NCBI RefSeq assembly: GCF_006519715.1
Contig: NZ_VIDT01000004.1
Location: forward strand, 1 to 38,501
Source of the DNA: Ideonella azotifigens
Lineage (GTDB): Bacteria > Pseudomonadota > Gammaproteobacteria > Burkholderiales > Burkholderiaceae_C
Length of the DNA: 38,501 nucleotides
Direction of reading: 5' to 3'
How positions within the stretch are numbered: position 1 is the stretch's first letter; each line of letters opens with the position of its first letter. The position numbers and the translations under genes were made by a program. Below are positions 8,742 to 38,112 of the stretch, piece after piece. The notes beneath the pieces were generated by a model. That model was given only the letters and a program-made list of their open reading frames with translations. It searched no databases and had not been told where the DNA came from.

Positions 8742-9629
8742 TCAGCCGAGCGACTGGCTCAGCAGGGCAAATGACCGGATGGCACCGGAGGCCGCCACTG
8801 CGCCTTTGGTCATGGGGATGGCCATGGCCACCCGCCGCAGGCCCAAGCCTTCGACCCACTCGATCAGTTCCCCGTTCGCCCGCACGTCCACGCGCAGGAA
8901 CTTGCCTGCAGCGAGCCGCGTGAAGTGGGCGATCAGCGCCTTGGCGCCGTGCAGATCGGGCGCGATGACCGGCCCGATCACCAAGCCCCGGCCGAAACGA
9001 CGCATGACGGCAAAGCCGACCGCCTCCATGTCCCGATCCAGCACGACGATCTCACCTTGATCCAGCAGCATCCGCAAGGCGCGCTCGCGCGGCATGCCCA
9101 TCGCTTGCAGGTCAAGTGCTGCCAGCCTCGGAGGGTCGTTGCGGCCCGCAGGGCGCAGCCGCTCGCCGGGCAGGAAGCTCATCAGCGGCGCCGGGGAGGC
9201 GATCCCCTGGTGCTGGCGCACGTCTCCAGTGCTGACGAAGCCCGAGCGCTCGTAGAGGCCCAGCCCCTCTGTGGTCGCGTGCAGCGAGACATCACGGTCC
9301 TCGAGGCCCTCGAGCAGGGTCTGCATGATGCGCGTTCCGATGCGCTGACCCTGGTACCGCTGCGTGACGATGATCATGCCAAGCGTCGCGTGGCGCTCGC
9401 CCCACTTCCAGCGCATGCCGGTGCCGATGACCTGGCCGTCGCGCTCGGCGACGAATCCCTGCCCGAGCGTGGACGCGATGTGCCAGTCCATGGAGCGATG
9501 TGGCCACTGCACTTCGACGGACAGGGCGTGCGCCGCATCCAGGTCGTCGACGTGAAGCGGCCGCATCAGGACGCCGTCAGCGACCGCGGGCGATGGGAAT
9601 GTGCGCAGCGACAAGAAGAACTCCCGCAT
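8742..9629 (-). CDS. Two-domain GNAT-family N-acetyltransferase
   Basis: A 295-residue protein. Residues about 20-140 form a GNAT acetyl-CoA-binding domain; 'IIVTQRYQGQRIGTRIMQ' is motif A with its pyrophosphate-binding R/Q-x-x-G-x-G/A pattern, and 'GLYERSGF' is motif B. Residues about 165-295 resemble the second, shorter acetyltransferase-like domain seen in YitH-type proteins ('VVLDRDMEAVGFAVMRR', 'RVDVRANGELIEWVEGLGL'). The ATG at 9629 has little Shine-Dalgarno, but no better start fits the domain. The gene is divergent from the FAD oxidase and on the same strand as the aminotransferase; it could acetylate an amine of that pathway, though this is a guess. Confidence 0.85.
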   Translation of the reverse strand: MREFFLSLRTFPSPAVADGVLMRPLHVDDLDAAHALSVEVQWPHRSMDWHIASTLGQGFVAERDGQVIGTGMRWKWGERHATLGMIIVTQRYQGQRIGTRIMQTLLEGLEDRDVSLHATTEGLGLYERSGFVSTGDVRQHQGIASPAPLMSFLPGERLRPAGRNDPPRLAALDLQAMGMPRERALRMLLDQGEIVVLDRDMEAVGFAVMRRFGRGLVIGPVIAPDLHGAKALIAHFTRLAAGKFLRVDVRANGELIEWVEGLGLRRVAMAIPMTKGAVAASGAIRSFALLSQSLG

Positions 9630-9944
9630 TTTTCATTGAGCATGGTTTCTCGCACAACGGGTGACAGGAATCTAGGAGATTCTTGGCGCCCACGCTGGCA
9701 GAAGGACCACGGCACGAAATGCTGCCCGGACTCGCGGAGAGCATCAAAAAGGTGCCTCAGCATGTTCTGCGGGGCATCTTGGTGCGCGGTGCGCCGTTCG
9801 GGGGACGCGCATGCACAGCATGCCGAGCGGGCCGTCACATTCAGCAGTTTTCACCTGGCTCGCTGCGGCAATCGCCACAACCTCCTACGGGCTGCGTGCT
9901 CCAATTTCTTCGTTGCCAGACCCTCAACCACATCTTCCCAACGC
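9630..9944. other. Divergent intergenic region with a 15-bp inverted repeat
   Basis: 315 bases between the acetyltransferase (minus) and the FAD oxidase (plus). Short open frames here have no family features. The one clear element is GAATCT-AGG-AGATTC at 9668-9682, a perfect 6-bp inverted repeat about 40 bases from the acetyltransferase start, a plausible operator for a divergent promoter. I see no riboswitch or small RNA that I can name, and no Shine-Dalgarno before the oxidase ATG. Confidence 0.4.
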
Positions 9945-11228
9945 ATGAAGCTGGACTCCTACTGGACGGCCACCGCAACCGCGCATTCCGTGCTGGAAAA
10001 GCCCTTGCCCGCGCGCGCCGACGTGGCGATCGTGGGTGGCGGCTTCACGGGCCTGTCCGCAGCGGTGGCCCTTGGCAGGCGCGGCGCGCGCGTGGTGGTG
10101 CTGGAGGCCGGCGCGATGGCGGGCGAGGCTTCGGGGCGCAACGGTGGCCATGTCAACAACGGGCTCGCTGTCGACTACGCCACGCTGGCGGCAAGCGTCG
10201 GCACCGAGCGCGCGAGCGCCTGGTATCGCGCCTACGACGCAGCGGTCGACTCGGTGGCACGCATCGTGCGGGAAGAGCGCATCGATTGCAATTTCCTGCG
10301 GAACGGCAAGCTCAAATTGGCCGCACGCGCTTCCGATTACGACACCCTGGCCAGAGGCTTCGACCGCCTGCACCGCGAAGTGGATTGCGACGTCGAGTTG
10401 CTGGATGCCGCAGCGATCCGCGACGAGATCCAGAGCGAGCGCTTCGTGGGCGGGCTGCTGCAAAAGCGCAGCGCGCAGATGCACATGGGTCGCTTCGGCG
10501 CTGGCCTCGCGCAAGCGGCAGAGCGTCATGGTGCCGAGTTGCATGCGCAGACCGAAGTGCGCCGCCTGGAGCGGGTGCGCGGGCAGGTGCACAGGCTGCA
10601 CACGGACCGTGGCGTGGTCGAGGCCGATCAGGTGCTGGTCGCCACCGGTGCCACGATGCATGGCAGCTATCCGTCGTTCGGCTTCTGGCGCCGTCGGATC
10701 GTGCCGATCGGCAGCTTCATCATCGTGACCGAGCCGCTGGGGCATGAACTCGCGCGTCGCATTCTGCCGGGCATCCGCACTTACACAACGGCAGCGCACA
10801 TCCACAACTATTTCCGCCTCACGCCCGATGATCGGCTCGTCTTCGGCGGCCGTGCGCGCTTTGCGATGTCCAGCCCCAACTCGGACGCGAAGAGTGGCCA
10901 CATCCTGCGCGAGGCCATGACCTGGGTGTTCCCGCAACTGTCGAAGACGCGCATCGACTACTGCTGGGGCGGCATGGTCGACATGAGCCGCGACCGGCTG
11001 CCGCACGCCGGCGAGCATCGGGGTCTGTACTACGCGATGGGCTACAGCGGGCACGGCACGCAGATGTCCGTGCACATGGGGCAGTGCATGGCCGACGTGA
11101 TGGCGGGCGATTCCGCTGCCAACCCGTGGCGCGACCTGGCGTGGCCGGCCATCCCGGGGCACTTCGGGCCGCCGTGGTTCCTGCCGTTGGTGGGTGCCTA
11201 TTTCAAGCTGAAGGACGCGCTGCGCTGA
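9945..11228 (+). CDS. FAD-dependent oxidoreductase, PuuB (gamma-glutamylputrescine oxidase)-like
   Basis: A 427-residue DAO-fold flavoenzyme. After 'SYWTATA', a short N-terminal segment typical of PuuB/OrdL-like oxidases, comes the FAD-binding GxGxxG at Gly31/Gly33/Gly36 in 'AIVGGGFTGLSAAVALG', then the 'GRNGGHVNNG' flavin loop and the C-terminal 'YYAMGYSGHGTQMSVHMG' motif. Such enzymes oxidise gamma-glutamylputrescine or related amines to aldehydes with release of ammonia and hydrogen peroxide. The long open frame upstream of ATG 9945 is a shadow of the acetyltransferase. The gene starts a plus-strand run with the peptide-type ABC importer 57 bases downstream, so the importer may bring in its substrate. 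No puuA or puuD gene is visible. Confidence 0.88.
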   Translation: MKLDSYWTATATAHSVLEKPLPARADVAIVGGGFTGLSAAVALGRRGARVVVLEAGAMAGEASGRNGGHVNNGLAVDYATLAASVGTERASAWYRAYDAAVDSVARIVREERIDCNFLRNGKLKLAARASDYDTLARGFDRLHREVDCDVELLDAAAIRDEIQSERFVGGLLQKRSAQMHMGRFGAGLAQAAERHGAELHAQTEVRRLERVRGQVHRLHTDRGVVEADQVLVATGATMHGSYPSFGFWRRRIVPIGSFIIVTEPLGHELARRILPGIRTYTTAAHIHNYFRLTPDDRLVFGGRARFAMSSPNSDAKSGHILREAMTWVFPQLSKTRIDYCWGGMVDMSRDRLPHAGEHRGLYYAMGYSGHGTQMSVHMGQCMADVMAGDSAANPWRDLAWPAIPGHFGPPWFLPLVGAYFKLKDALR

Positions 11229-24009: not shown

Positions 24010-24026
24010 CGCAACAAGACGTTGCG
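24010..24026. terminator. Hairpin directly after the DTW gene
   Basis: CGCAAC and GTTGCG form a perfect 6-bp stem around AAGAC, starting at the base after the stop codon. No U-tract follows, so termination activity is doubtful. It may mark the end of the DTW transcript before hsdM. Confidence 0.3.
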
Positions 24027-24156
24027 GACGGCCCCCGCGGCGGCGCATTCGCGGATTGGCCATGAATGGCTCCGTCGCAAGCCCGCTGACTTCAGGCCCT
24101 CCGGTTTTTCCCAGCCGTGCAGCCATTGCTGCCGGGTTGCCTCCACTGCCCTGTTC

Positions 24157-25717
<1,561 letters not shown>

Positions 25718-25728
<11 letters not shown>

Positions 25729-27037
25729 GTGGGGGAAATTCACAGACCTGCTCTCTGCCATCGTGGACAACCGAGGCAAGACTTGCCCGGTTGGTGACAG
25801 CGGCTTGCCACTCATCGCCACGAACTGCATCAATGCTGACGATCTTTATCCGCGATATGAAACGAAGCGCTTCGTTTCAGACGAAACCTACAGAACATGG
25901 TTTCGTGGGCATCCGAAACCGGGTGACATTCTCTTTATCTGCAAGGGGAGTCCTGGCCGTACCAACTGGGTTCCCGATCCAGTTGATTTCTGTATTGCCC
26001 AAGATATGGTTGCAGTAAGGGCAAATCCTGCAAAGGTTTACCCCAAATATCTGTTTGCGACATTGCGCTCTGAGGTTGTGCAGTCCCAAATTGACAACAT
26101 GCATGTCGGCACAATGATCCCGCATTTCAAGAAGGGAGACTTCGACAAGCTTCGGATTCCCTTGCTTGATAGCGTGGCACAGGTGGGTGTTGGCGATTTT
26201 TATTTTGATCTGGCAGAGCGAATAAACCTCCTGCGCGAAACCAACGCCACCCTCGAAGCCATCGCCCAGGCGCTGTTCAAGTCGTGGTTCGTCGATTTCG
26301 ACCCCGTGCGCGCCAAGATGGAAGGCCGTGCGCCCGAAGGCATGGACGAGGCCACGGCGGCGCTGTTTCCTGATTCGTTGGAGGAGACGGCGTTGGGGTC
26401 GGCGCCGAAGGGGTGGACTTTCAAGCCTGTCGCTGAAGTCGTTCAAGGCGTGTACGACGGCCCGCACGCGACCCCCCCGGAAGCCGAGTCGGGCGGCGTA
26501 TTCCTGGGCATCAAGAACCTGACGGGTACGGCGCTGGACTTGACCGAGATTCGGCACATCGGCGAAGACGACTGGGCCAAGTGGACCAAGCGGGTCGAGC
26601 CTCGCATTGGTGACATCGTGTTCAGCTATGAGGCTACTCTGGGATTCTTTGCCTTGGTGCCGCCGGACTTGCGGTGTTGTTTGGGGCGCCGTTTAGCGCT
26701 CATACGGCCGAATACCAGAGATGGCGCAGGGCACTTCTGGTTTCATCAGTTTGTGGCCGAACCATTTCAACGTTTGCTGGACAAGCACACCATCCACGGC
26801 GCGACGGTCAACCGCATTGCATTGAAGGAGTTTCCGTCTTACTCGGTACTCACGCCACCAGTGGCTTTGCAAATGGCCTTCGATCAGGTCGCTGCGGCCA
26901 TTTGGTCGCGGATTCATGCAAACCAGGCGCAGGCACAGGTGCTTGCACAGTGCCGGGATACCTTGCTTCCCCGTCTGATCTCCGGTCAAGTCCGCCTGCC
27001 CGAAGCAGTGCAATCGCAAGAGGAGTACGCGCTATGA
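25718..27037 (+). CDS. hsdS: Type I specificity subunit HsdS
   Basis: A 439-residue protein with two target-recognition domains (TRDs), residues about 1-165 and 220-400. They are separated by the central conserved helix '[20 protein letters not shown]' followed by '[14 protein letters not shown]', and closed by the second helix '[20 protein letters not shown]'. The two TRDs set the two halves of a split recognition sequence. TRD1 has unusually low GC for the window (24 of 60 bases in 25981-26040, counted by hand), a sign that the recognition half was acquired or exchanged. The ATG lies inside hsdM; the stop overlaps the mcrB start as ATGA. Its target sequence cannot be read from the protein. 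Confidence 0.95.
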
Positions 27038-29925
27038 CGGTGAGCGTGAGTGATCGTTATGCGATGTGGGACCAGTTTCTGGCGCGTTGGCCGCTGAAGA
27101 GCTTGGGCGAGATGACTTTGCAGCAGTACACCCAGGCGGGCGACAAAGATAGTTTCACGAACTGGCTGGAAACCGGGACGGAGGACTTGGGCTCGATGTG
27201 GGGTGGCTCGTCCTTCAAGTTTGGCGTCTATTCGCGGAAAAATCAGTCCGCCAAGACAGATGGCGAGGGCCTGCGCTACACGCAGGACTACGCATGGCTG
27301 AACAAGTATGGCGAGACGCCAGAAGTTGCCTTCCGAGAGGTTCGGACCGCCATCGTGCAGGTGGCAGAGGCGGCGAGTCGCGGAGATCTTGCCGCCATCG
27401 ACGAGGTCGACCTTGGCACGGTCACCAAATGGAAGATCGCGTTTCTGTACCAAGACCGGGCGCATCCATGTGTGTTGCCAATCTTCAAGCGCGAAAGCTT
27501 GCAGTCCTTGGTTGGACCTGGCAAACAAAGCTGTGCGGCGCTTCAGTACGCATTGACGGCGAAGCGCCACGACCTGGATCTCCTGGCCTATGGAGATGAG
27601 TTGTGGTCCGACATCCAGACCATTGAAGCGGCCAAGTTGGGCTTGGAGGCTGCTTTGGCCTATCTGGAAAGCCACGATGGCCTTCAGCCCGTCAAAGAGC
27701 CGACCAAATACCTCGCGGGCTTCAAAACCGCATCAGGCTTACAACTGGCATTGGTGAGAACCAACAACACGCCCACGCTCTGCCTCAGCCCTGGTGATTG
27801 GCTGGATGGGGTTCGCGGCGAGTTGCAAGACATCAAGTTTCATGCGGCGGACAAGCCGCGCAATAGCAACCTGGCTGCTAACGCGCCGTCGCTCGCCGTA
27901 GGGCAACCTATGGTGCAAGTGGCAGTTCCCAGTCTCAAAGCCTTGATGGACCTCTGTGAGGCCTATATCGGCGCCACCGAGTCAGAGTCCGCGGATACGC
28001 CCTCTCCCGCGCGTGCCATGCAACCCATGCTGCCCATGCCCCAGCCACCACTGAACCAAATCCTGTATGGCCCGCCGGGTACTGGCAAAACCTATGCAAC
28101 GGTGAACGCCGCGTTGGCCATCCTCGACCCGGCCTTTTTGGCTTCGCATGGTGATGACCGGGCTGCGTTGAAGGCTCGATTTGATGCGTTGATCGAAGAC
28201 CAGCGCATTCGCTTCGTGACCTTTCACCAGAGCTTCAGCTATGAAGACTTTGTGGAAGGGCTGCGAGCCACGACTTCGGAGGACGCCGGCCAGATCCGCT
28301 ACGAGATCGTGGATGGGGTGTTCAAAGTGATTTGCGAGGCGGCTGCGGCCAAGGTTGTGCTGCCGGCCGAAGCTGGGGCGGGTGCATTGCCCACGTTGGA
28401 CGTGAAGGGCCGGCGCATTTGGAAGATGTCGCTGGGCAATACCTTGGGCAGCGATGCTTCGATCTACGACGAGTGCATTGCCAGCGGCTACGCGCTGCTG
28501 GGCTATGGCGGCAAGGTTGACTTCGCCGGCTGCAAGTCTCGCGAAGAGGTGCTGCAGCGCTACCAAGCCGGTGGTTTGCGCCTGGAAAACGCGCAAACCG
28601 ACTACGGCGTGACCAGTGTCACGGCCTTTGTGGTCCGCATGAAACCGGGCGACCTGGTGGTCATCAGCGATGGCAACTTCAAGTTCCGGGCGATTGGTGA
28701 AGTCGCTGGGGACTACGCCCTCAAACCGCACAGCGAATACGACAACGACTATTCGCAGATGCGCCCCGTCAGGTGGTTGCGCACCTATGTGCCATCGCAG
28801 CCGCATGGCGAGCTGATGAACAACCAGTTCAGCCAAATGACGCTGTATGAGCTGCGGCCTGGCTCCATCGATGTGGCCAAGCTGCAACGGCTGTTGGGCG
28901 AAGGCAGGTCAGAGGTTGGCTCCGGCCAGTTGCAGCTTGGCACCGTGGGTTCCTCGGGCTACGAAATCACGCGGGTGAGCGCCGATCTGGTTGAGCTGAA
29001 CAAGCCCAACGGCAACCGCTTGGCATTTGCGATGAGCTTGTTGAACACCCTGGCAGCCGCTGTGCGGGCAGGCCAGATCAGTGTTGAAGACATTCGGCAG
29101 AAGCGGGCCGTGGAAAAGCTGCCAGGCCAGGGCTTGGAGCCGTACCTGGTGAACGGCTACCCCAACATCCTGGCGCCCTTGGTAGAGCGCCTCGCAGGAG
29201 GCGGAGCGGCTGTGCTTGGTGGCAAGGCGGGCGACGTTTCTCCGGATGCTCGAGTCTTGATCATCGACGAGATCAACCGGGGCAACATCTCCCGCATCTT
29301 CGGTGAGCTGATCACGCTGATCGAGCCCTCCAAGCGGGCCGGTGCTGACGAGGCGCTGGAGGCGGTGCTGCCGTATTCGCAAGAGTCGTTCAGCGTGCCT
29401 GGCAACGTCTACCTGATTGGGACCATGAACACGGCGGATCGCTCACTCGCGGGGCTGGACATTGCGCTGCGTCGTCGCTTTGTGTTCAAGGAGATGCCAC
29501 CTCAGCCGGATTTGCTACGCGGCGTGGAAGTGGCGGGAGTGGACTTGGGCGAGTTACTTGCCACCCTGAACCAGCGCATCGAGGCGCTGCTGGATCGCGA
29601 GCATTGCCTGGGCCACGCCTATTTCATGCCGCTCAAGGCGGCGCCTTCGTTGGCGAAGCTGTCGGAAGTGTTCCGCAATCAAGTGCTGCCGCTGCTGCAG
29701 GAGTATTTCTTCGAGGACTGGCAGCGCATTCAGTGGGTGCTGAACGACCATCGCAAAGCCAACCTGGAGCATCAGTTTGTGCAAGCAGTGCCACTGGATG
29801 CGGCGCGGCTGTTTGGACCTGGCGTGAATGTGTCGCAGCAGCGTCCGGCCTGGCGCGTCAATGGTGATGCCTTCATGCGAGCCGAGAGCTACCTGGGCGT
29901 GCTGGACGCAACGGCCGCTGTGTGA
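27034..29925 (+). CDS. mcrB: McrB-type AAA+ NTPase of a modification-dependent restriction system
   Basis: A 963-residue protein; the start is ATG 27034 overlapping the hsdS stop. Residues 1-320 form an N-terminal module with 'DSFTNWLETGTEDLGSMW', likely for DNA recognition. The motor follows: Walker A 'LYGPPGTGKT' (346-353), 'RFVTFHQSFSYEDFVEGL' (about 393), Walker B 'VLIIDEINRGNIS' (about 740), and the McrB signature 'GTMNTADRSLAGLDIALRRR' (about 796). About 165 residues (456-620) are inserted between Walker A and B; they run from 'RRIWKMSLGNTLG' to 'FSQMTLYELRPGSI' and contain 'VRMKPGDLVVISDGNFKFRA', resembling a PUA/EVE-like modified-base reader. Similar insertions occur, as I recall, in other long McrB proteins. 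It should translocate with McrC. Confidence 0.93.
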   Translation: MTVSVSDRYAMWDQFLARWPLKSLGEMTLQQYTQAGDKDSFTNWLETGTEDLGSMWGGSSFKFGVYSRKNQSAKTDGEGLRYTQDYAWLNKYGETPEVAFREVRTAIVQVAEAASRGDLAAIDEVDLGTVTKWKIAFLYQDRAHPCVLPIFKRESLQSLVGPGKQSCAALQYALTAKRHDLDLLAYGDELWSDIQTIEAAKLGLEAALAYLESHDGLQPVKEPTKYLAGFKTASGLQLALVRTNNTPTLCLSPGDWLDGVRGELQDIKFHAADKPRNSNLAANAPSLAVGQPMVQVAVPSLKALMDLCEAYIGATESESADTPSPARAMQPMLPMPQPPLNQILYGPPGTGKTYATVNAALAILDPAFLASHGDDRAALKARFDALIEDQRIRFVTFHQSFSYEDFVEGLRATTSEDAGQIRYEIVDGVFKVICEAAAAKVVLPAEAGAGALPTLDVKGRRIWKMSLGNTLGSDASIYDECIASGYALLGYGGKVDFAGCKSREEVLQRYQAGGLRLENAQTDYGVTSVTAFVVRMKPGDLVVISDGNFKFRAIGEVAGDYALKPHSEYDNDYSQMRPVRWLRTYVPSQPHGELMNNQFSQMTLYELRPGSIDVAKLQRLLGEGRSEVGSGQLQLGTVGSSGYEITRVSADLVELNKPNGNRLAFAMSLLNTLAAAVRAGQISVEDIRQKRAVEKLPGQGLEPYLVNGYPNILAPLVERLAGGGAAVLGGKAGDVSPDARVLIIDEINRGNISRIFGELITLIEPSKRAGADEALEAVLPYSQESFSVPGNVYLIGTMNTADRSLAGLDIALRRRFVFKEMPPQPDLLRGVEVAGVDLGELLATLNQRIEALLDREHCLGHAYFMPLKAAPSLAKLSEVFRNQVLPLLQEYFFEDWQRIQWVLNDHRKANLEHQFVQAVPLDAARLFGPGVNVSQQRPAWRVNGDAFMRAESYLGVLDATAAV

Positions 29926-31256
29926 ATACGGTCATCAGCGTCCGCGAGCACGCGTGGCTGAGCACGACGCCTCAGCCACCGTCCTTGGACTGTGCGCAGA
30001 TCAGCGAGAGTGCCTTCGATCATCTTTGCCAGGTCAGCGAGCTGTTTTCACGCAGTGGCGCGCCCTTGGCTCAGCTGGAGGGCAGGCGGCGCTTGAAGCT
30101 GGACAACTACGTGGGCGTGATTTGCACGCCTTGCGGCACCACGCTGGAAGTGTTGCCCAAGCTCCACGAGTTGGAAGACAGCGTGGCGGGCAGCCGGGCA
30201 CTGTTGCGCAAACTGATCCAGGCGAGTTTGAACTTGTCCGCCCGCGAGGTGGGGCAGGCGGCCATTGAGCGGTTCGATGCGCCATTGTCCGAGTGGGTGA
30301 TGCGCCGATTTCTGGACGAGCTGGACACCGTGGTGAAGCGAGGCCTGCGCTTCGACTACCACCGACTGGAAGAGGAACTGCCCTTTGTGCGAGGTCAACT
30401 GGATTTGAAGGCGCAGCTGCGCCAGCCACCCGGCAAGGCGCACCGCTTCCACGTTCGACACGACGTTTACTTGCCAGACCGCGCGGAGAATCGGCTTCTC
30501 AGGTTGGCACTGGAGCGCGTGCGCGTGGCCACGCAGGACCCGGACAGCTGGCGCTTGGCGCAGGAGCTGAGCATGCGATTGATCGAGGTGCCATCCAGTC
30601 GGCATGTCCCCGGTGACTTCCGAGCCTGGGGCAGTGATCGGTTGATGGCGCACTACCGCGCCGTGAAGCCCTGGTGTGAGCTGATCTTGAATCGCTTGAT
30701 GCCGCTGGCCGTGTTGGGCGTGCATCAGGGGTTGAGCCTGCTGTTCCCGATGGAGAAGCTGTTCGAGCGTCACGTGGCGGCCTGGCTGCGCCAACACGTG
30801 CTGCCGGAGGTGGGCATTCGCACGCCGGCCGCCAGCGAGGCGCTTTGCCTGCATTTGGATCGGCCCATGTTCCGGTTGGAGCCGGATGTCCTGCTGCGCA
30901 TGGGCGCGGTGCGCCGCGTGCTGGACATGAAATGGAAGCGGCTGGATGCGGGCAACCGCGAGCAGAAGTACCAGTTGAGCCAATCCGACCTGTATCAGAT
31001 GTTCGCTTACGGCCACAAGTACCTGGCAGGCGCTGGGCAGATGGCGCTGATCTATCCGCGATCGGCCAAGTTCAGCCAGCCGCTGCCACCATTTGATTTC
31101 AACGGCGGCATGCGGCTGCATGTGCTGCCGTTTGATCTGGACCGGGACGAATTGGTCGGGGCTGAGCGGGTGCTGGCAGGATTCAGCGACCGCTGGTCTG
31201 CGGTGCCGAAGGTCGATGGCGCAGTGCTGTGCGCCATTGAAACCAAGCTTTCATAA
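29922..31256 (+). CDS. mcrC: McrC-type nuclease subunit
   Basis: A 444-residue protein starting at GTG 29922, overlapping the mcrB stop as GTGA. Residues 1-110 are the McrC N-terminal domain that contacts the McrB ring ('LKLDNYVGVICTPCGTTLEV' then 'LPKL'). The C-terminal part is a PD-(D/E)xK nuclease: Asp322 in 'RLEPDVLL', then Asp335-x-Lys337 in 'VLDMKWKRL', with a following 'QSDLYQMFAYGHKY' helix typical of McrC. With McrB it forms an NTP-driven DNA cutter directed by modified bases. A 63-base gap with palindromes separates it from fic. Confidence 0.94.
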   Translation: MNTVISVREHAWLSTTPQPPSLDCAQISESAFDHLCQVSELFSRSGAPLAQLEGRRRLKLDNYVGVICTPCGTTLEVLPKLHELEDSVAGSRALLRKLIQASLNLSAREVGQAAIERFDAPLSEWVMRRFLDELDTVVKRGLRFDYHRLEEELPFVRGQLDLKAQLRQPPGKAHRFHVRHDVYLPDRAENRLLRLALERVRVATQDPDSWRLAQELSMRLIEVPSSRHVPGDFRAWGSDRLMAHYRAVKPWCELILNRLMPLAVLGVHQGLSLLFPMEKLFERHVAAWLRQHVLPEVGIRTPAASEALCLHLDRPMFRLEPDVLLRMGAVRRVLDMKWKRLDAGNREQKYQLSQSDLYQMFAYGHKYLAGAGQMALIYPRSAKFSQPLPPFDFNGGMRLHVLPFDLDRDELVGAERVLAGFSDRWSAVPKVDGAVLCAIETKLS

Positions 31257-31265
31257 GACCGCTTC

Positions 31266-31313
31266 GTATTAAAGAATGCTTTAATACAAGCCCACTCATT
31301 CAAAGAATCTTTG
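31266..31313. promoter_or_regulatory. Two related palindromes upstream of fic, candidate operators
   Basis: GTATTAAAG-AATG-CTTTAATAC (31266-31287) is a 9-bp perfect inverted repeat, and CAAAG-AAT-CTTTG (31301-31313) a 5-bp one ending seven bases before the fic ATG. Both share the core AAAGAAT(G)CTTT. The region is AT-rich in a GC-rich island. Neither is followed by a U-tract, so binding sites are likelier than terminators. The Fic protein has a C-terminal winged-helix domain and could bind them. Confidence 0.55.
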
Positions 31314-31319
31314 CATGTG

Positions 31320-32465
31320 ATGCGCAGCACTGGCAGCTTGGTCACGACCACCACCCTGGGTGAAGCCGTTCAGGCGTTTGTGCCATGTCCGTTGCCGCCG
31401 AGCGAGCCGGCACTGGACCTGGCCGGCTTCGAGCCTGCCCATCGTGCGGCCGAGGTGGCCCTGGCCAGGCTGGCCGGCGTTTCGGGCTTGGTGCCTTCGG
31501 TGGACTGGCTGCTCTACAGCGCCATTCGCAAGGAGGCTTTGCTGACCTCGCAGATCGAGGGCACGCAGGCCACGCTGGACGACTTGTTCGAGGACGAAGC
31601 GGGCTTTGCCGTTGCCAACACCGAGGACGTGGAGGAGGTGACGAACTACCTGCGCGCTTTTCGGCTGGTGCGCGAGCAGTTGCAGGACCCGCACGGCTTG
31701 CCGATCAGTGTGCGGCTGCTGTGCGAGGCGCATCGGCTGTTGCTGGATGGTGTGCGGGGTGCGGGCAAGCAACCGGGTGAGCTGCGCCGCTCGCAGAACT
31801 GGATCGGCGGCACGCGGCCTGGCAATGCGGTGTTCGTGCCGCCGCCGGCAGATCGCATTGGTGCCTTGTTGGGCGACCTGGAGCGCTTCATCCATGCACC
31901 TGCCGGCGGCTTGCCGCCGTTGGTGAAGATTGCGCTGGTGCATGCCCAGTTCGAAACCATCCACCCCTTTCTGGATGGCAATGGCCGCATAGGCCGCCTG
32001 CTGATCGCCGCTTTGCTGGAACATTGGGCCTTGCTGCCCGAGCCCCTGATGTACCTGAGCGGATACCTGAAGCAACACCAGGCCGAGTACTACCGGCGTT
32101 TGTCTCTTGTTCGCTCACAAGGCGACTGGGAAGGCTGGGTGGGCTTTTTCCTGGGGGGCGTTGAGGCCGCAGCTGCGCAAGCGGAGCGGGGCATTGTGGC
32201 CATTGCCAGCCTGGTGGCGGCCGACAGGCGGCTGCTGTTGGATTCCCCCAAGGCCGGCCCCGCCAGCTACCGGCTGTTCGAGATGCTGCCGATGATGCCG
32301 CGCTTCACCGTGGAGCAGGTGCGGCACAAACTGGGCACGAGTTTTCCGACGGCCAACGCAGCGGTGCAGGTGCTGGCCGCGCTGGGCATCGTGGCCGAAC
32401 TGACCGGACAAAAGAAGAACCGCAGCTACAGCTATCCGGCCTACATCGCGCTGCTCACGCGCTGA
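31320..32465 (+). CDS. Fic-family protein (AMP-transferase type) with C-terminal winged helix
   Basis: A 381-residue Fic protein. The active-site motif 'HPFLDGNGRIGR' (His215) is intact, so AMP (or another nucleotide) transfer to a protein hydroxyl is expected. An inhibitory-helix motif [S/T]xxxE[G/N] is seen as 'TSQIEG' (Thr76-Gly81), upstream of the Fic core as in class II Fic proteins. A C-terminal winged helix-turn-helix ('FTVEQVRHKLGTSFPTANAA' to 'YPAYIALLTR', about 315-381) could bind DNA. I chose ATG 31320 over TTG 31311 and GTG 31317. It lies between mcrC and hsdR on the same strand, 18 bases before hsdR. Its target and role in defence are unknown. Confidence 0.92.
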   Translation: MRSTGSLVTTTTLGEAVQAFVPCPLPPSEPALDLAGFEPAHRAAEVALARLAGVSGLVPSVDWLLYSAIRKEALLTSQIEGTQATLDDLFEDEAGFAVANTEDVEEVTNYLRAFRLVREQLQDPHGLPISVRLLCEAHRLLLDGVRGAGKQPGELRRSQNWIGGTRPGNAVFVPPPADRIGALLGDLERFIHAPAGGLPPLVKIALVHAQFETIHPFLDGNGRIGRLLIAALLEHWALLPEPLMYLSGYLKQHQAEYYRRLSLVRSQGDWEGWVGFFLGGVEAAAAQAERGIVAIASLVAADRRLLLDSPKAGPASYRLFEMLPMMPRFTVEQVRHKLGTSFPTANAAVQVLAALGIVAELTGQKKNRSYSYPAYIALLTR

Positions 32466-32483
32466 ACCCCTACCTGAACGCGC

Positions 32484-35400
32484 ATGACCGAAGACCAACT
32501 CGAACAGGAAACCCTGGGCTGGCTGGCCGAGCTGGGCTATGCGGTGCAGCATGGGCTGGACATTGCGCCAGACGGCGCCAACCCTCAGCGCGCGGACTAC
32601 CGGCAGGTGGTGCTGCCGTTCCGGCTGCGCGAGGCCATTCAGCGGCTGAATCCTCAGGTGCCCACGGCGGCGCGGGAAGACGCGCTGCAGCAGGTGCTGA
32701 ACCTGGGGGTGCCGGCCTTGCTGTCGGCCAACCGGGCGTTCCACAAGCTGCTGGTGGGCGGCGTGCCGGTGCAGTACCAGCTGGACGGCGAAACCCGCGG
32801 CGATTTTGTGCGGCTGGTGGATTGGGCCGATGCCTCGCGCAACGAGTTCTGGGCCGTCAACCAGTTCAGCATCAAAGGCCCGCGCCACACGCGCCGTCCG
32901 GACATCATCCTGTTCGTCAATGGCCTGCCGCTGGTGCTGCTGGAGTTGAAGAACCCGGCCGACCAGGCGGCCGACATCTGGAAGGCGCACGACCAGATCG
33001 AGACCTACAAGGCCCAGATCCCGGACGTGTTCCAGTACAACGAAGTGCTGGTGATCACCGACGGCACGGATGCGCGCCTGGGCTCGCTCTCGGCCAATGC
33101 CGAGCGCTTCATGCAGTGGCGCACGATTGACGGCGTGGCGCTGGACCCGTTGGGCGAGTTCAACGAGCTGGAGACGCTGGTGCGGGGCGCATTGGCGCCG
33201 CGCCTGCTGCTGGACTACCTGCGGTTTTTCGTGCTGTTCGAGGACGACGGCACGCTGGTCAAGAAGATTGCCGGCTACCACCAGTTCCACGCGGTGCGGG
33301 CGGCGATCGAGCATGTGGTGGCGGCTTCGCGCGCCGACAGTCCGGCAGCGCTGCAGGGCAAAGGCGGCGTGGTGTGGCACACGCAGGGCAGCGGCAAGAG
33401 CATCACCATGACCTGCTTCGCGGCCAGGGTGATGCAGGAGCCTTTGATGCAGAACCCGACCATCGTCGTCATCACCGACCGCAACGACCTGGATGGCCAG
33501 TTGTTCGGCGTGTTCAGCCTGGCGCAGGACCTGCTGCGCGAGCAGCCGGCGCAAGCCAGCACGCGGCAGTCGCTGCGCCAGTTGCTGGGCGGGCGGCCAT
33601 CGGGTGGCATCGTCTTCGCCACGATCCAGAAGTTCATGCCTGGCGAGGACGAGGACATGTTCCCGGTGCTGTCCGACCGCCGGAACATCGTGGTGATTGC
33701 CGACGAGGCGCATCGCACGCAATACGGCTTCGAGGCGAAGCTGAAGACGCGCAAGCTGCGGCCAGATGCGGATGCGGGCAAGAGCCCGGCACGGGCCATC
33801 GTGGCCAACGATGGTTCACCGCTGGTGACGGCGCTGACAGCGGACTTTGTCCCGCCAAGCTATGCGGCCTCCTACCAGGTGGGCTATGCCCAGCACCTGC
33901 GGGACGCGCTGCCGCACGCCACCTTCGTGGCCTTCACCGGCACGCCGGTGAGTGCGGCCGACCGCGACACACGTGCAGTCTTCGGCGACTACATCCATGT
34001 CTACGACATGCAGCAGGCCAAGGAAGACGGCGCCACGGTGGCCATCTACTACGAAAGCCGGCTGGCCAAGCTCAAGCTGAAGCAGGAAGACCTGGCGCTG
34101 CTGGACGACGAAGTCGACGAGCTGGCCGAGGACGAGGAGGAAAGCACGCAGGCGCAGCTCAAATCGCGCTGGGCGGCGCTGGAAAAGGTGGTGGGTGCCG
34201 AGCCGCGCGTGGCCAGTGTGGCGGCGGACCTGGTGGCGCACTTCGAGGAGCGCAACAAGGCCCAGGAAGGCAAGGCCATGGTGGTGACCATGAGCCGCGA
34301 CATTTGCGTGCACCTCTACAACGAGATCATCAAGCTGCGCCCGGATTGGCATGACGACGACCCCGAGCGCGGCGCCATCAAGATCGTCATGACCGGCAGC
34401 GCCAGCGACAAGGCCTTGCTGCGGCCACACATCTACAGCGGCCAGGTGAAGAAGCGGCTGGAAAAGCGCTTCAAGGATCCCAAGGACCCGCTGCAACTGG
34501 TCATCGTGCGGGACATGTGGCTGACAGGCTTCGACGCGCCTTGCGTGCACACCATGTACGTGGACAAGCCAATGAAGGGGCACAACCTGATGCAGGCGAT
34601 TGCCCGCGTCAACCGCGTGTTCTGCGACAAGCAGGGCGGCCTGGTGGTGGACTACATCGGCATTGGCAATGAGCTCAAGGCCGCGATGAAGGAGTACACC
34701 GCCAGCCAGGGCCGTGGCCGGCCGGCGGTGGACGCGCACGAAGCGCTGTCAGTGCTGCTGGAGAAGCTCGATGTGCTGCGCGCCATGCTGCACGGCTTTG
34801 ACTACTCGGCCTTCAAGATCGGCGGCCACAAGACGCTGGCGGGCGCTGCCAACCATGTGCTGGGCCTGAAAGCCGAGCCAAAGGACAGCCAGCGGGATGG
34901 CAAGAAGCGTTTTGCGGACGCGGCGCTGGCCTTGAGCAAGGCCTTCAGCCTGTGCTGCACGCTGGACGAGGCCAAGGCCGTGCGTGACGAGGTGGCGTTT
35001 CTTCAAGCCGTGAAGGTCATCCTGACCAAGCGCGACCTCAGCACGCAGAAGAAGACCGATACCCAACGCGACGCGGCCATTCGCCAGATCATCAGCCAGG
35101 CGGTGGTCAGCGAGCGGGTGGTCGACATCTTCGATGCCGTGGGCCTGGAGAAGCCCAACATCGGCCTGCTGGACGATGCCTTCCTGGCGCAGGTGAAGAA
35201 CCTGCCGGAGCGCAACCTGGCGGTTGAACTGCTGGAGCGCCTGCTGGAAGGCGAAATCAAGAGCAAGTTCGCCAGCAACGTGGTGCAGCAGAAGAAGTTT
35301 TCCGAGCTGCTGAGCGGCGTGATCACGCGCTACCAGAACCGCAGCATCGAGACGGCGCAGGTCATGGAAGAACTGGTCGAGATGGCCAAGAAATTCCGCG

Positions 35401-35711
35401 CCGCAGCCAGCCGGGGTGAGCAACTGGGCCTGACAGAAGACGAGGTGAAGTTCTACGACGCGCTGGCCAGCAACGAATCAGCGGTCAAGGAACTGACCGA
35501 TGAAACGCTGAAGAAGATCGCCCACGAACTGACCGAGAGCCTGCGCAAAAACGTCACCGTGGATTGGTCGCAGCGTGAAAGCGTGCGAGCCAGCCTTCGA
35601 TTGATGGTCAAGCGGGTGCTGCGCAAGTACAAGTACCCACCAGACAAAGCCGATGCGGCTGTGGAGCTGGTGTTGCAGCAGGCCGATGCGCTGGGAGAGG
35701 CCTGGGCCTGA
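32484..35711 (+). CDS. hsdR: Type I restriction endonuclease/translocase subunit HsdR
   Basis: A 1075-residue motor-nuclease. The N-terminal nuclease has Asp140 in '[11 protein letters not shown]' and Glu154-x-Lys156 in 'LVLLELKN'. The SF2 motor follows, with Walker A '[11 protein letters not shown]' (Lys305), '[14 protein letters not shown]', 'DEAH' at 407-410, '[10 protein letters not shown]' and '[20 protein letters not shown]'. C-terminal residues from about 750 form the helical part that docks to the HsdM-HsdS core. It cuts DNA lacking the HsdS-defined methylation after ATP-driven translocation. Its separation from hsdMS by mcrBC and fic is unusual. It is probably co-transcribed with fic, 18 bases upstream. 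Confidence 0.96.
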
Positions 35712-35736: not shown

Positions 35737-36201
35737 TCAGATCGCGCTGGCCTTGCTGCCAGTGGCCACGGCAGCGGGGCCGCGGTCCTGCGTGCTGGAG
35801 ATCACTTCGACCTTTTCGAACGACGTTGCGACGCCGCTGTTCCGGCGCTCCCACTTTTCGGCGGGGGTCAGCTGGCGCGAGGTGATCTTCAGGACCTGGC
35901 GGGTCGGGTATTCGCCGGCGGCGCGGGCCTGGGCGATGGCCACGTCCTTGGCCACGCCGGTGTGAATGGCGTAGGCCGCACGGGGGCCTGGGACGAGGTG
36001 TTCTTCAACGCGGACGTTGGACGACCCGGCCTGCGCGGTATCGCTGAAACCGGCAGTCTGGCCGCCCACGGCGCGTTGGTAGATCTGTTCCGGCGAGGCG
36101 GACGAGCCAGCTGCGAACGACGAGGCGGCGGCCAAGCTGATCAGGGCGCCCAGGGCCAGGGTCTTGGCGGTCTTGGAAGCGGAAGTGTGGAGGGTGAACA
36201 T
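35737..36201 (-). CDS. Small secreted protein A, unrecognised family, tandem paralogue
   Basis: A 154-residue protein convergent with hsdR (25 bases between stops). The Sec signal peptide 'LALGALISLAAASSFA' ends near residue 31. The mature protein begins 'AGSSASPEQIYQRAVGGQ' and carries the block 'GPRAAYAIHTGVAKDVAIAQ' then 'RQVLKITSRQLTPAEKWERR', ending 'FEKVEVISS'. This block is shared with protein B next door. There are no cysteines in the mature part. GAGG lies seven bases before the ATG. I cannot assign a domain. Predicted periplasmic or secreted; function unknown. Confidence 0.8.
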   Translation of the reverse strand: MFTLHTSASKTAKTLALGALISLAAASSFAAGSSASPEQIYQRAVGGQTAGFSDTAQAGSSNVRVEEHLVPGPRAAYAIHTGVAKDVAIAQARAAGEYPTRQVLKITSRQLTPAEKWERRNSGVATSFEKVEVISSTQDRGPAAVATGSKASAI

Positions 36202-36342
36202 GGTGAAACCTCTGAGGAATGGGTCAGTGGGCTCGCTCAGGGAATCGGCACTTCGTTGTCGGTTCTGCTTGCCCTGGGTGCATTGCAGCATAGGGTTTTC
36301 ACTAGTGCTTCTGGACCTCGTTTTTGACCTCATTCGAAGTGT

Positions 36343-36358
36343 GCGCAATCGTTTGCGC
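36343..36358. repeat. Inverted repeat GCGCAA-TCGT-TTGCGC in the gap between the paralogues
   Basis: A perfect 6-bp inverted repeat with a 4-base spacer, 141 bases upstream of the protein A start. The rest of this 257-bp gap holds no open frame with domain features. It could be an operator of gene A or a chance repeat in GC-rich DNA. Confidence 0.25.
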
Positions 36359-36458
36359 GCCTCGCGTTCACTGCTTTTATGGAGTATGGGAGGCTTGGCC
36401 GGGGCTGAAGCTGGTTCCAGGACGTCTTTCGGGCGTGCGCCCCAAGGCCCGGCCGGCT

Positions 36459-36917
36459 TCAGCGTTTGACCGTCGCCGGCTTGTCGCCTTGGGCGACAGG
36501 ACCGGGACCGGTATCAGGCGCGCTGGACAGCACTTCCACCTTCTCCCAGGGCGACACGTAGCGGCCGTTGACGCGGTCCCATTGCTCGGCCGGCGAGAGC
36601 TGGCGCGTGGTGATGCGCACGACCTGCCGGATTGGTACTTCACCGCCGGCGCGGGCCTTGGCAATGGCTTCGGCCTTCGGTACGCCGGTGTGGATGGCAT
36701 AGGCCGCGCGCGGCCCCGGTTGCAGCCGCTCTTCGATGCGCACTGCCTGCGAAGGCTTGCCGTCGCCGCAGCCCCAGGTCTGGCCGGCAACCGCGCATTG
36801 ATAGGTCTTGTCCTGCGGGTCGGACGGACCGAGCGCGTACGAGGCGGTCGTCGCGACGAAGGAGGCGATGGCGACCAGTGCCGTGACCGCCGCCTTGGGT
36901 ACGTGAAATGTGCGCAT
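36459..36917 (-). CDS. Small secreted protein B, unrecognised family, tandem paralogue
   Basis: A 152-residue paralogue of protein A. Signal peptide 'AVTALVAIASFVATTASYA' with cleavage near residue 29. The mature protein starts 'LGPSDPQDKTYQCAVAGQ' and carries the shared block 'GPRAAYAIHTGVPKAEAIAK', 'RQVVRITTRQLSPAEQWDR' and 'WEKVEVLSS'. In my hand alignment about 49 of 74 core residues are identical to A. Unlike A it has a Cys pair in 'YQCAVAGQTWGCGDG', suitable for a disulphide. A strong AGGGG Shine-Dalgarno stands six bases before the ATG. Predicted exported; function unknown. It lies 257 bases from A, so the two may have separate promoters. Confidence 0.8.
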   Translation of the reverse strand: MRTFHVPKAAVTALVAIASFVATTASYALGPSDPQDKTYQCAVAGQTWGCGDGKPSQAVRIEERLQPGPRAAYAIHTGVPKAEAIAKARAGGEVPIRQVVRITTRQLSPAEQWDRVNGRYVSPWEKVEVLSSAPDTGPGPVAQGDKPATVKR

Positions 36918-37020
36918 GGTGATCCCCTGATGCTGGTTGGACCGCGGCGGACGCCGCGGGCATCAGGAGGCCGGCGCTGCGACTGGGCTGGCGCGGCGGT
37001 CCTGACAGCTGAACCATAGG

Positions 37021-37041
37021 ATTCGCCCGGGCGAGGCGAAT
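37021..37041. repeat. Inverted repeat ATTCGCC/GGCGAAT upstream of protein B
   Basis: Perfect 7-bp arms around a 7-base spacer, 104 bases upstream of the protein B start in the 184-bp gap. It may be an operator or leader hairpin. No U-tract follows. Confidence 0.3.
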
Positions 37042-37057
37042 CTGCCATGCGGGGGGT

Positions 37058-37101: not shown

Positions 37102-38112
37102 TCAGAACCCGGCGAGTACCACTTTGCCCAGCGCGCGGCCGCTTTCGATCAGCGCATGGGCGCGCTTCAGGCTGGCGGCGTTGATGCTGCCGAAGTTCTC
37201 GCTCGCGGTGGTGCGCACGCGGCCGGCATCCACCAGCTGCGCCACCTCGGCCAGCAGCTCGCCCTGGCGGTGCATGTCCGGTGTCTCGAACATCGGGCGG
37301 GTGAACATCAGCTCCCAGTGCAGCGACAGCGCCTTGGTCTTGAGCTTCATCGCGTCCAGGCCGTCCATGTCGTCAATGCAGCCGATGGCGCCTTGCGGCT
37401 TCAGCGCTTCGATGATCTGCGGGTAGTGATGCGCCGTCTGCGTGAGGGCGGCGACGAAGTCGGCCTGGCCTTCGCCCGCGGCTAGCAGCTCTGTGGCCAG
37501 GGGCTTGCTGTGGTCGATCACCGCATGCGCGCCCAGGTCCAGGCACCACTGGCGCGTCTCGGCACGCGAGGCGGTGGCCACCACGCGCAGTTGCGTGAGC
37601 TGCCGCGCCAGCTGGATCAGGATGGAGCCCACGCCGCCGGCGCCGCCAATCACCAGCAGCGTCTGCCCGGCGCCGCCGCCCTGGGCCACGCGCAGCCGGT
37701 CGAACAGCAGCTCGTAGGCGGTGATGGTGGTCAGCGGCAGCGCGGCGGCCTGGGTGTCGTCCAGCGAATTGGGCGCCAGCGCGGCGATGCGCTCGTCCAC
37801 TGTATGCAACTCGCTGTTGGCACCTGGCCGGTTGATCGCCCCGGCGTAGTACACCCGGTCGCCCGGCTTGAACTTCGCCACGGCCGCACCCAAGGCTTCG
37901 ACCGTGCCCACCGCGTCCCAACCTAGCACACGCGCCTGGCCTTCGGGGGGCGGGCTGTTGCGGCGCACCTTGGTGTCGACAGGGTTGACCGAGATGGCTT
38001 TGACGCGCACCAGCAGGTCGCGCGCGCCAGGCGCGGGTGCTGGCAGTTCAAGGTCGAGCAGCGCGTCTGTGTGGTCGACGGGCAGGTTCTGGCGGTAACC
38101 AATGGCTTTCAT
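37102..38112 (-). CDS. Zinc-independent MDR-family NAD(P)H-dependent oxidoreductase
   Basis: A 336-residue medium-chain dehydrogenase/reductase of the quinone-oxidoreductase/zinc-binding-dehydrogenase-like group. The N-terminal GroES-like domain contains 'AISVNPVDTKVR' and 'LGWDAVGTVEALG' (residues about 35-80). The NAD(P)H-binding loop is 'VIGGAGGVGSILIQLARQL' (residues about 155-173). The structural and catalytic zinc cysteines of true alcohol dehydrogenases are absent. AGGA stands seven bases before the ATG. It probably reduces a quinone or alpha,beta-unsaturated ketone; the exact substrate is unknown. It diverges from the LysR gene at the right edge, which probably controls it. Confidence 0.9.
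   Translation of the reverse strand: MKAIGYRQNLPVDHTDALLDLELPAPAPGARDLLVRVKAISVNPVDTKVRRNSPPPEGQARVLGWDAVGTVEALGAAVAKFKPGDRVYYAGAINRPGANSELHTVDERIAALAPNSLDDTQAAALPLTTITAYELLFDRLRVAQGGGAGQTLLVIGGAGGVGSILIQLARQLTQLRVVATASRAETRQWCLDLGAHAVIDHSKPLATELLAAGEGQADFVAALTQTAHHYPQIIEALKPQGAIGCIDDMDGLDAMKLKTKALSLHWELMFTRPMFETPDMHRQGELLAEVAQLVDAGRVRTTASENFGSINAASLKRAHALIESGRALGKVVLAGF

Follow-up and report, generated by a model that had tools for sequence, protein, structure and literature searches.

We report that two adjacent genes of Ideonella azotifigens, here termed A and B, code for members of a family of small, exported-looking proteins that is absent from the family libraries searched, and are shown by their alignment and phylogenetic tree to be sisters and old tandem paralogues, one with and one without a pair of cysteines. 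Both genes lie on the minus strand of the 38,501 nucleotide stretch of genomic DNA that was analyzed (hereafter the window). Gene B (36917..36459) codes for an exported-looking protein of 152 residues with cysteines at positions 41 and 50 (CX8C), and gene A (36201..35737) for one of 154 residues that has no cysteine. The interval 35737-36917, which had been singled out in the original prediction, proved exact, running from the final base of the stop codon of A to the first base of the ATG of B. Alignment of the two proteins likewise confirmed that an arginine and a phenylalanine of A align to the cysteines of B, and it shows that the segment around the missing cysteines is still kept in A.

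The longest open reading frame for gene A begins upstream, at a TTG at 36348; we take the protein to begin at the ATG at 36201, because the purine-rich stretch AGAGG lies just upstream of this ATG and the signal peptide starts there. Both proteins look exported, as had been proposed: a simple script based on a hydrophobic stretch and N-terminal charge, rather than a trained predictor, finds candidate signal peptides with a positive N-terminus and possible cleavage sites at SFA in A and SYA in B. The two proteins are identical at 75 of 150 aligned residues and their local alignment scores 343, the best of 1000 shuffles reaching 59; the earlier hand count of 49 identical residues out of 74 was reproduced over a 74-column stretch starting with VRVEE/VRIEE. 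The nucleotide differences between the genes fall at codon positions 1, 2 and 3 in the numbers 56, 39 and 70, a pattern of coding sequence under selection; together with the ribosome-binding-like stretches and the open frames these differences argue for the predicted translation of both genes.

Profile searches recovered no model for A or B in Pfam, NCBIfam or PHROG at e-values up to 1 and none in PADLOC at e-value <= 0.001, and the best match among the PDB sequences had an e-value of 0.29 or worse, in agreement with the claim that the family had gone unrecognized. When A, B and nine relatives were run against Pfam, the sole match was that of one member to DUF7624 (e-value 0.1). In the literature searched, the motif strings of the family were absent, as was any joint occurrence of DUF4148 with CopQ, and the listings of further searches contained nothing on the family. 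Genome searches recovered 13 members in 10 genomes, all from the one taxonomic family in which nearly all the searching took place: A and B themselves (G000), L005 (G011), L008 (G092), L011 (G134), L012 (G154), L075 (G177), L007 (G220), L006 and L081 (G234), L010 (G303), and L009 and L016 (G422). Judged by these searches, the family appears to be genuine, though rare and patchily distributed. The genome samples overlap one another: 399 genomes from the taxonomic family of the window gave hits in 10 (that of the window among them; G063 and G188 dropped), and hits were further obtained in 9 of 349 (own included; G007 and G074 dropped) and 7 of 349 (own included; G090 dropped) in a second and a third sample, in two of 60 relatives (own genome included), in two of 60 genomes around G303 (itself included) and in five of 200 in a further sample. 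The dropped hits (e-value <= 0.001) fell in other or broken frames, the listed open reading frames of which lacked the family motif; two weak hits in the genome of the window itself (L003 and L004, e-value 0.05-0.07) were also not counted as members. The 60 relatives include 15 genomes of the window's genus besides its own, and of these only G011 has a member, which is of the copper type described below; a scan of named genomes gave a single locus, in Piscinibacter caeni MQ-18, which is within the 13 members counted. An order-wide profile search, in which at most 10 candidates were scored per genome and which may therefore miss members, recovered the family in one of 399 genomes, solely that of the window. 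No family match was found in the plasmids, phages and viral contigs searched, nor did TBLASTN searches with B and L005 against plasmids give a match at an e-value limit of 0.01.

All 13 members have in common the motif G[PSA]xAxY....G.....A...A, which was written from these same 13 sequences and is hence a description rather than a test of membership. The cysteines are distributed unevenly: 1) seven of the 13 members (B, L005, L006, L008, L009, L010 and L016) carry CX8C; 2) five (A, L007, L011, L012 and L075) have no cysteine at all; 3) L081, a short relative, has three cysteines with a spacing other than CX8C. The pair is thus not essential to the family. Histidines number from zero to five per member, with no invariant histidine column. 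In the phylogenetic tree A and B group with support of 97/95, on branches of near-equal length (0.46 and 0.44), and so bear out the proposed tandem duplication; four copper-type proteins group at 100/99 and L006 with L007 at 84/89, the deeper forks being weak. Since CX8C occupies the same position in seven of the 13, loss of the pair in A is the simplest direction of change, and a single loss would be the shortest account, although in this unrooted tree with weak deep forks the direction is unproven. Of the earlier proposal that a probable disulphide had changed after duplication, the change of residues is therefore real, and the disulphide itself is putative.

AlphaFold models of A and B share one confident core, comprising residues 61-138 of A and 57-134 of B with the elements in the same order, strand-helix-helix-strand-helix-strand. 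Averaged over ten residues, pLDDT is 86-98 in B (residues 61-130) and 87-98 in A (residues 61-140), while the overall pTM is only 0.49 for B and 0.48 for A, the segment with the cysteines being among the uncertain parts. As the cysteines lie outside the core, their loss need not upset the fold; this weakens the original suggestion of a difference in stability, given that the segment is outside the confident core in both models and that the core is predicted unchanged where the pair is absent. Foldseek searches of the PDB with either model gave no match at e-value <= 0.001, and BFVD had no match to the model of B. G5 domains and cystatins were among the top structural rows, with Z-scores of 2.8-4.4 (best 4.4 in one comparison and 3.6 in the other) that are far below a meaningful level, and serve as fold leads only.

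A contextual association concerns the well-supported subgroup of L005, L008, L009 and L010, all four of which are encoded in copper/silver-resistance clusters, each in a different genome. The gene order at these loci is a FAD/thioredoxin-reductase-like gene, the family gene, a small gene, and then cusC, cusB and cusA, with an extra called frame (9611-11032) between the reductase-like gene and the family gene in L053. On the other side, locus L055 has genes for the multicopper oxidase CopA, a CusF-like protein, a cupredoxin and CopK; a CopA gene was not recognized among the genes listed for L052, L053 and L054. Genes in these loci were called by a home-made GC-position script, and the identities tested with profiles are those of genes of L055 and of CusA of L054, the other loci having been judged by the resemblance of translated starts. 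Matches that exceed the curated cut-offs comprise CusA (TIGR00914), CopA (TIGR01480) and an RND adaptor (TIGR01730), along with the Pfam models CusF, CopK, cupredoxin and Pyr_redox_2. The product of cusC matched TolC-type models below cut-off only, and the NCBIfam equivalogs for CusB, CusF, CopK and CopI also remained below cut-off. The small gene between the family gene and cusC (L055:4113-4574) codes for an exported-looking protein with cysteine and histidine, which has no Pfam or NCBIfam match and has like genes in the other three loci.

At each of the four copper loci a palindrome, ATGAC-N6-GTCAT, ends 90 bp before the ATG of the family gene. A first-order Markov model of each locus predicts 0 to 0.02 such palindromes per 19-kb locus; one each was observed in L052 and L053, three in L054 and two in L055. 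The arms and their spacing are the same as in the E. coli CusR site AAAATGACAAnnTTGTCATTTT, and the site of a Pseudomonas CusR, ATTCATnnATGTAAT, differs, both as given in PMC11195947. The spacer varies between the copper loci; the stretch just downstream is as conserved as the arms, and for that reason the conservation of the arms in itself says little. In two loci the FAD/thioredoxin-reductase-like gene has a further CusR-like palindrome of its own upstream (L054:8265-8280 and L055:6369-6384), which suggests that this gene and the family gene may form one copper-responsive set; the third palindrome of L054 is elsewhere. As the four loci are close copies of one island, they amount to about one independent association. 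The full palindrome was absent from the window, from the five other family neighborhoods scanned (a set that does not include L095 and L096) and from the 49-kb copper region of pMOL30.

The nearest known counterparts are accessory proteins of copper/silver clusters in the periplasm, namely CopK, CusF and CopQ/PrsQ of Cupriavidus metallidurans, which like this one subgroup are small, exported-looking and encoded in cusCBA/cop clusters. PrsQ1 and PrsQ2 are described as predicted small periplasmic proteins, and a resistant mutant is reported to forfeit silver resistance when they are deleted (PMC7380067). CopK and CusF, however, gave no sequence match to the family, and both occur as separate genes in the L055 cluster; their Pfam models (PF11604 for CusF and PF11525 for CopK) matched neither A nor B at e-values up to 1, nor A, B and nine relatives at a limit of 10. 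The pMOL30 protein that we take from its gene order to be CopQ has 78 residues and RDPFTDG-like repeats.

The neighborhoods of the remaining members are mixed. L012 and a peroxidase gene (PF00141), the product of which is by its length presumably KatG-like, are arranged divergently, as are L006 and a gene for an S41 protease; L007 has a divergent gene for a DUF4118 sensor kinase on one side and lies ahead of an MFS transporter gene. In the neighborhood of L081 (L096:7967-10389), a multi-repeat DUF4148 gene stands on either side of the family gene, the second separated from it by another gene, and L016 also lies by a DUF4148 gene. These neighbors hint at envelope or stress functions, as single cases noted after looking. 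No informative neighbor was recognized for L011 or L075.

The reading that we favor, tentatively and as something short of probable, is that the family acts in the periplasm as an accessory in stress or metal handling and has a CX8C arm that can be dispensed with, kept in B and lost in A. From their signal peptides the members would be exported and probably soluble periplasmic proteins, each combining a short N-terminal segment with the predicted beta-alpha-alpha-beta-alpha-beta core that bears the motif, and this core may bind a partner or ligand that all members share. In the cysteine-bearing form, comprising B and six other members, the periplasmic CX8C could close as a disulphide or hold a soft metal such as Cu(I), and one subgroup would have been taken into copper/silver-efflux islands behind the CusR-like palindrome, its regulation being predicted from that sequence. 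Alternatively, the pair may be a structural disulphide that pins the N-terminal segment of proteins engaged in general envelope upkeep with no metal (e.g. a small chaperone, an inhibitor or a cell-wall accessory), the copper subgroup being cargo recruited for general periplasmic damage. The diversity of the neighborhoods, the retention of the core motif in the cysteine-free members and the sparse, variable histidines all fit this account, which is a serious possibility if a rather doubtful one, in that the copper subgroup has its own CusR-like palindrome and lies one gene from cusCBA. A bolder version of the metal role appears quite improbable to us: that the family are unrecognized periplasmic carriers of soft metal, Cu(I) or Ag(I), with the CX8C arm loading the core, B acting as carrier and A as a paralogue blind to metal, which as a built-in regulator would occupy the partner of B or compete for it.

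The fate of A bears on a further possibility, namely that it is a redundant copy drifting towards loss, in which the cysteines have decayed. Both cysteines are indeed gone, and the signal peptide (7 of 28 residues identical between A and B, dN 0.78, dS 1.10), which is the least conserved part, and the tail are both poorly conserved. Across the core (residues 57-134 of B), however, 49 of 78 residues are identical, with dN 0.29 and dS 0.84, and judged by the resulting dN/dS of about 0.34 the core is under purifying selection; A has no stops, and its branch, being about as long as that of B, indicates that it is not decaying quickly. We hence consider decay of A unlikely. On the accessory-family reading, B would have kept the pair after the duplication and A would have lost both cysteines with its core still under purifying selection, such that A would still perform the core function but no longer one that depends on thiols or metal.

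It is less probable still that the family arose as a diverged offshoot of DUF4148 (PF13663), a common group of small and exported-looking proteins in the same order of bacteria. L016 lies 32 bases downstream of a DUF4148 gene on the same strand, L081 is also near such genes, and the two groups, both small and exported-looking, have an ARAxGE-like stretch in common. Nevertheless, no profile relation was found: HHalign gave a probability of 0.3 to 0.4% over 14 to 16 columns, and none of 11 members matched the model in Pfam at an e-value limit of 10, a search in which the HMMER filters drop most weak matches.

Examination of the window around A and B showed a gap of 257 bp (36202..36458) between the stop of B and the start of A. 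It includes much of an inverted repeat without a T run, one arm of which lies at 36404-36414 and the other, at 36453-36463, overlaps the end of B. The predicted RNA fold of the gap is modest (z -1.53; 16 of 200 shuffles fold as well or better). Upstream of B is a perfect inverted repeat with 8-base arms and a 7-base spacer (37020..37042), a possible, putative operator. It has a single exact copy in the genome, and as a regulon mark it was not borne out at two mismatches, where three more places were found as against one for the control. A search for a promoter motif shared by A and B gave no sigma-70-like and no terminator-like site, and no 8-mer common to the two genes except at the start codon. 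The next gene upstream of B codes for a zinc-type dehydrogenase/quinone reductase family protein (37102..38112, minus strand). Homologues 55-63% identical to it were found in five of the 15 congeneric genomes searched. Like the window, two of these loci (L089 and L090) also have a LysR-type gene in divergent orientation, and no family gene adjoins the homologue at any of the five.

On the other side, a defense block (24022-35711) codes for HsdM, HsdS, a 1083-codon open frame with weak restriction/defense matches, a McrBC component, a SoFic-like Fic protein and the type I restriction subunit HsdR (32484..35711, plus strand). That A is convergent with hsdR at a distance of 25 bases, next door to matches to SoFic and restriction models, would fit A and B being cargo of this block with a role in phage defense or as toxin and immunity, but PADLOC has no model for either at e-value <= 0.001, visual inspection of the genes listed for the other neighborhoods revealed no such block and both proteins look exported, making this the most improbable of the explanations considered.

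No metal gene was recognized beside A and B, and nothing found ties the pair itself to copper; as to the redox behavior originally proposed, a redox or metal role is made plausible by the copper-cluster subgroup for the relatives, and would be a bare possibility for the A/B pair. The two genes nevertheless provide a natural pair of proteins with and without the cysteines, adjoining in one genome, and the tie of one branch of the family to copper resistance, through its position and the CusR-like palindrome, makes a first role for the family directly testable.
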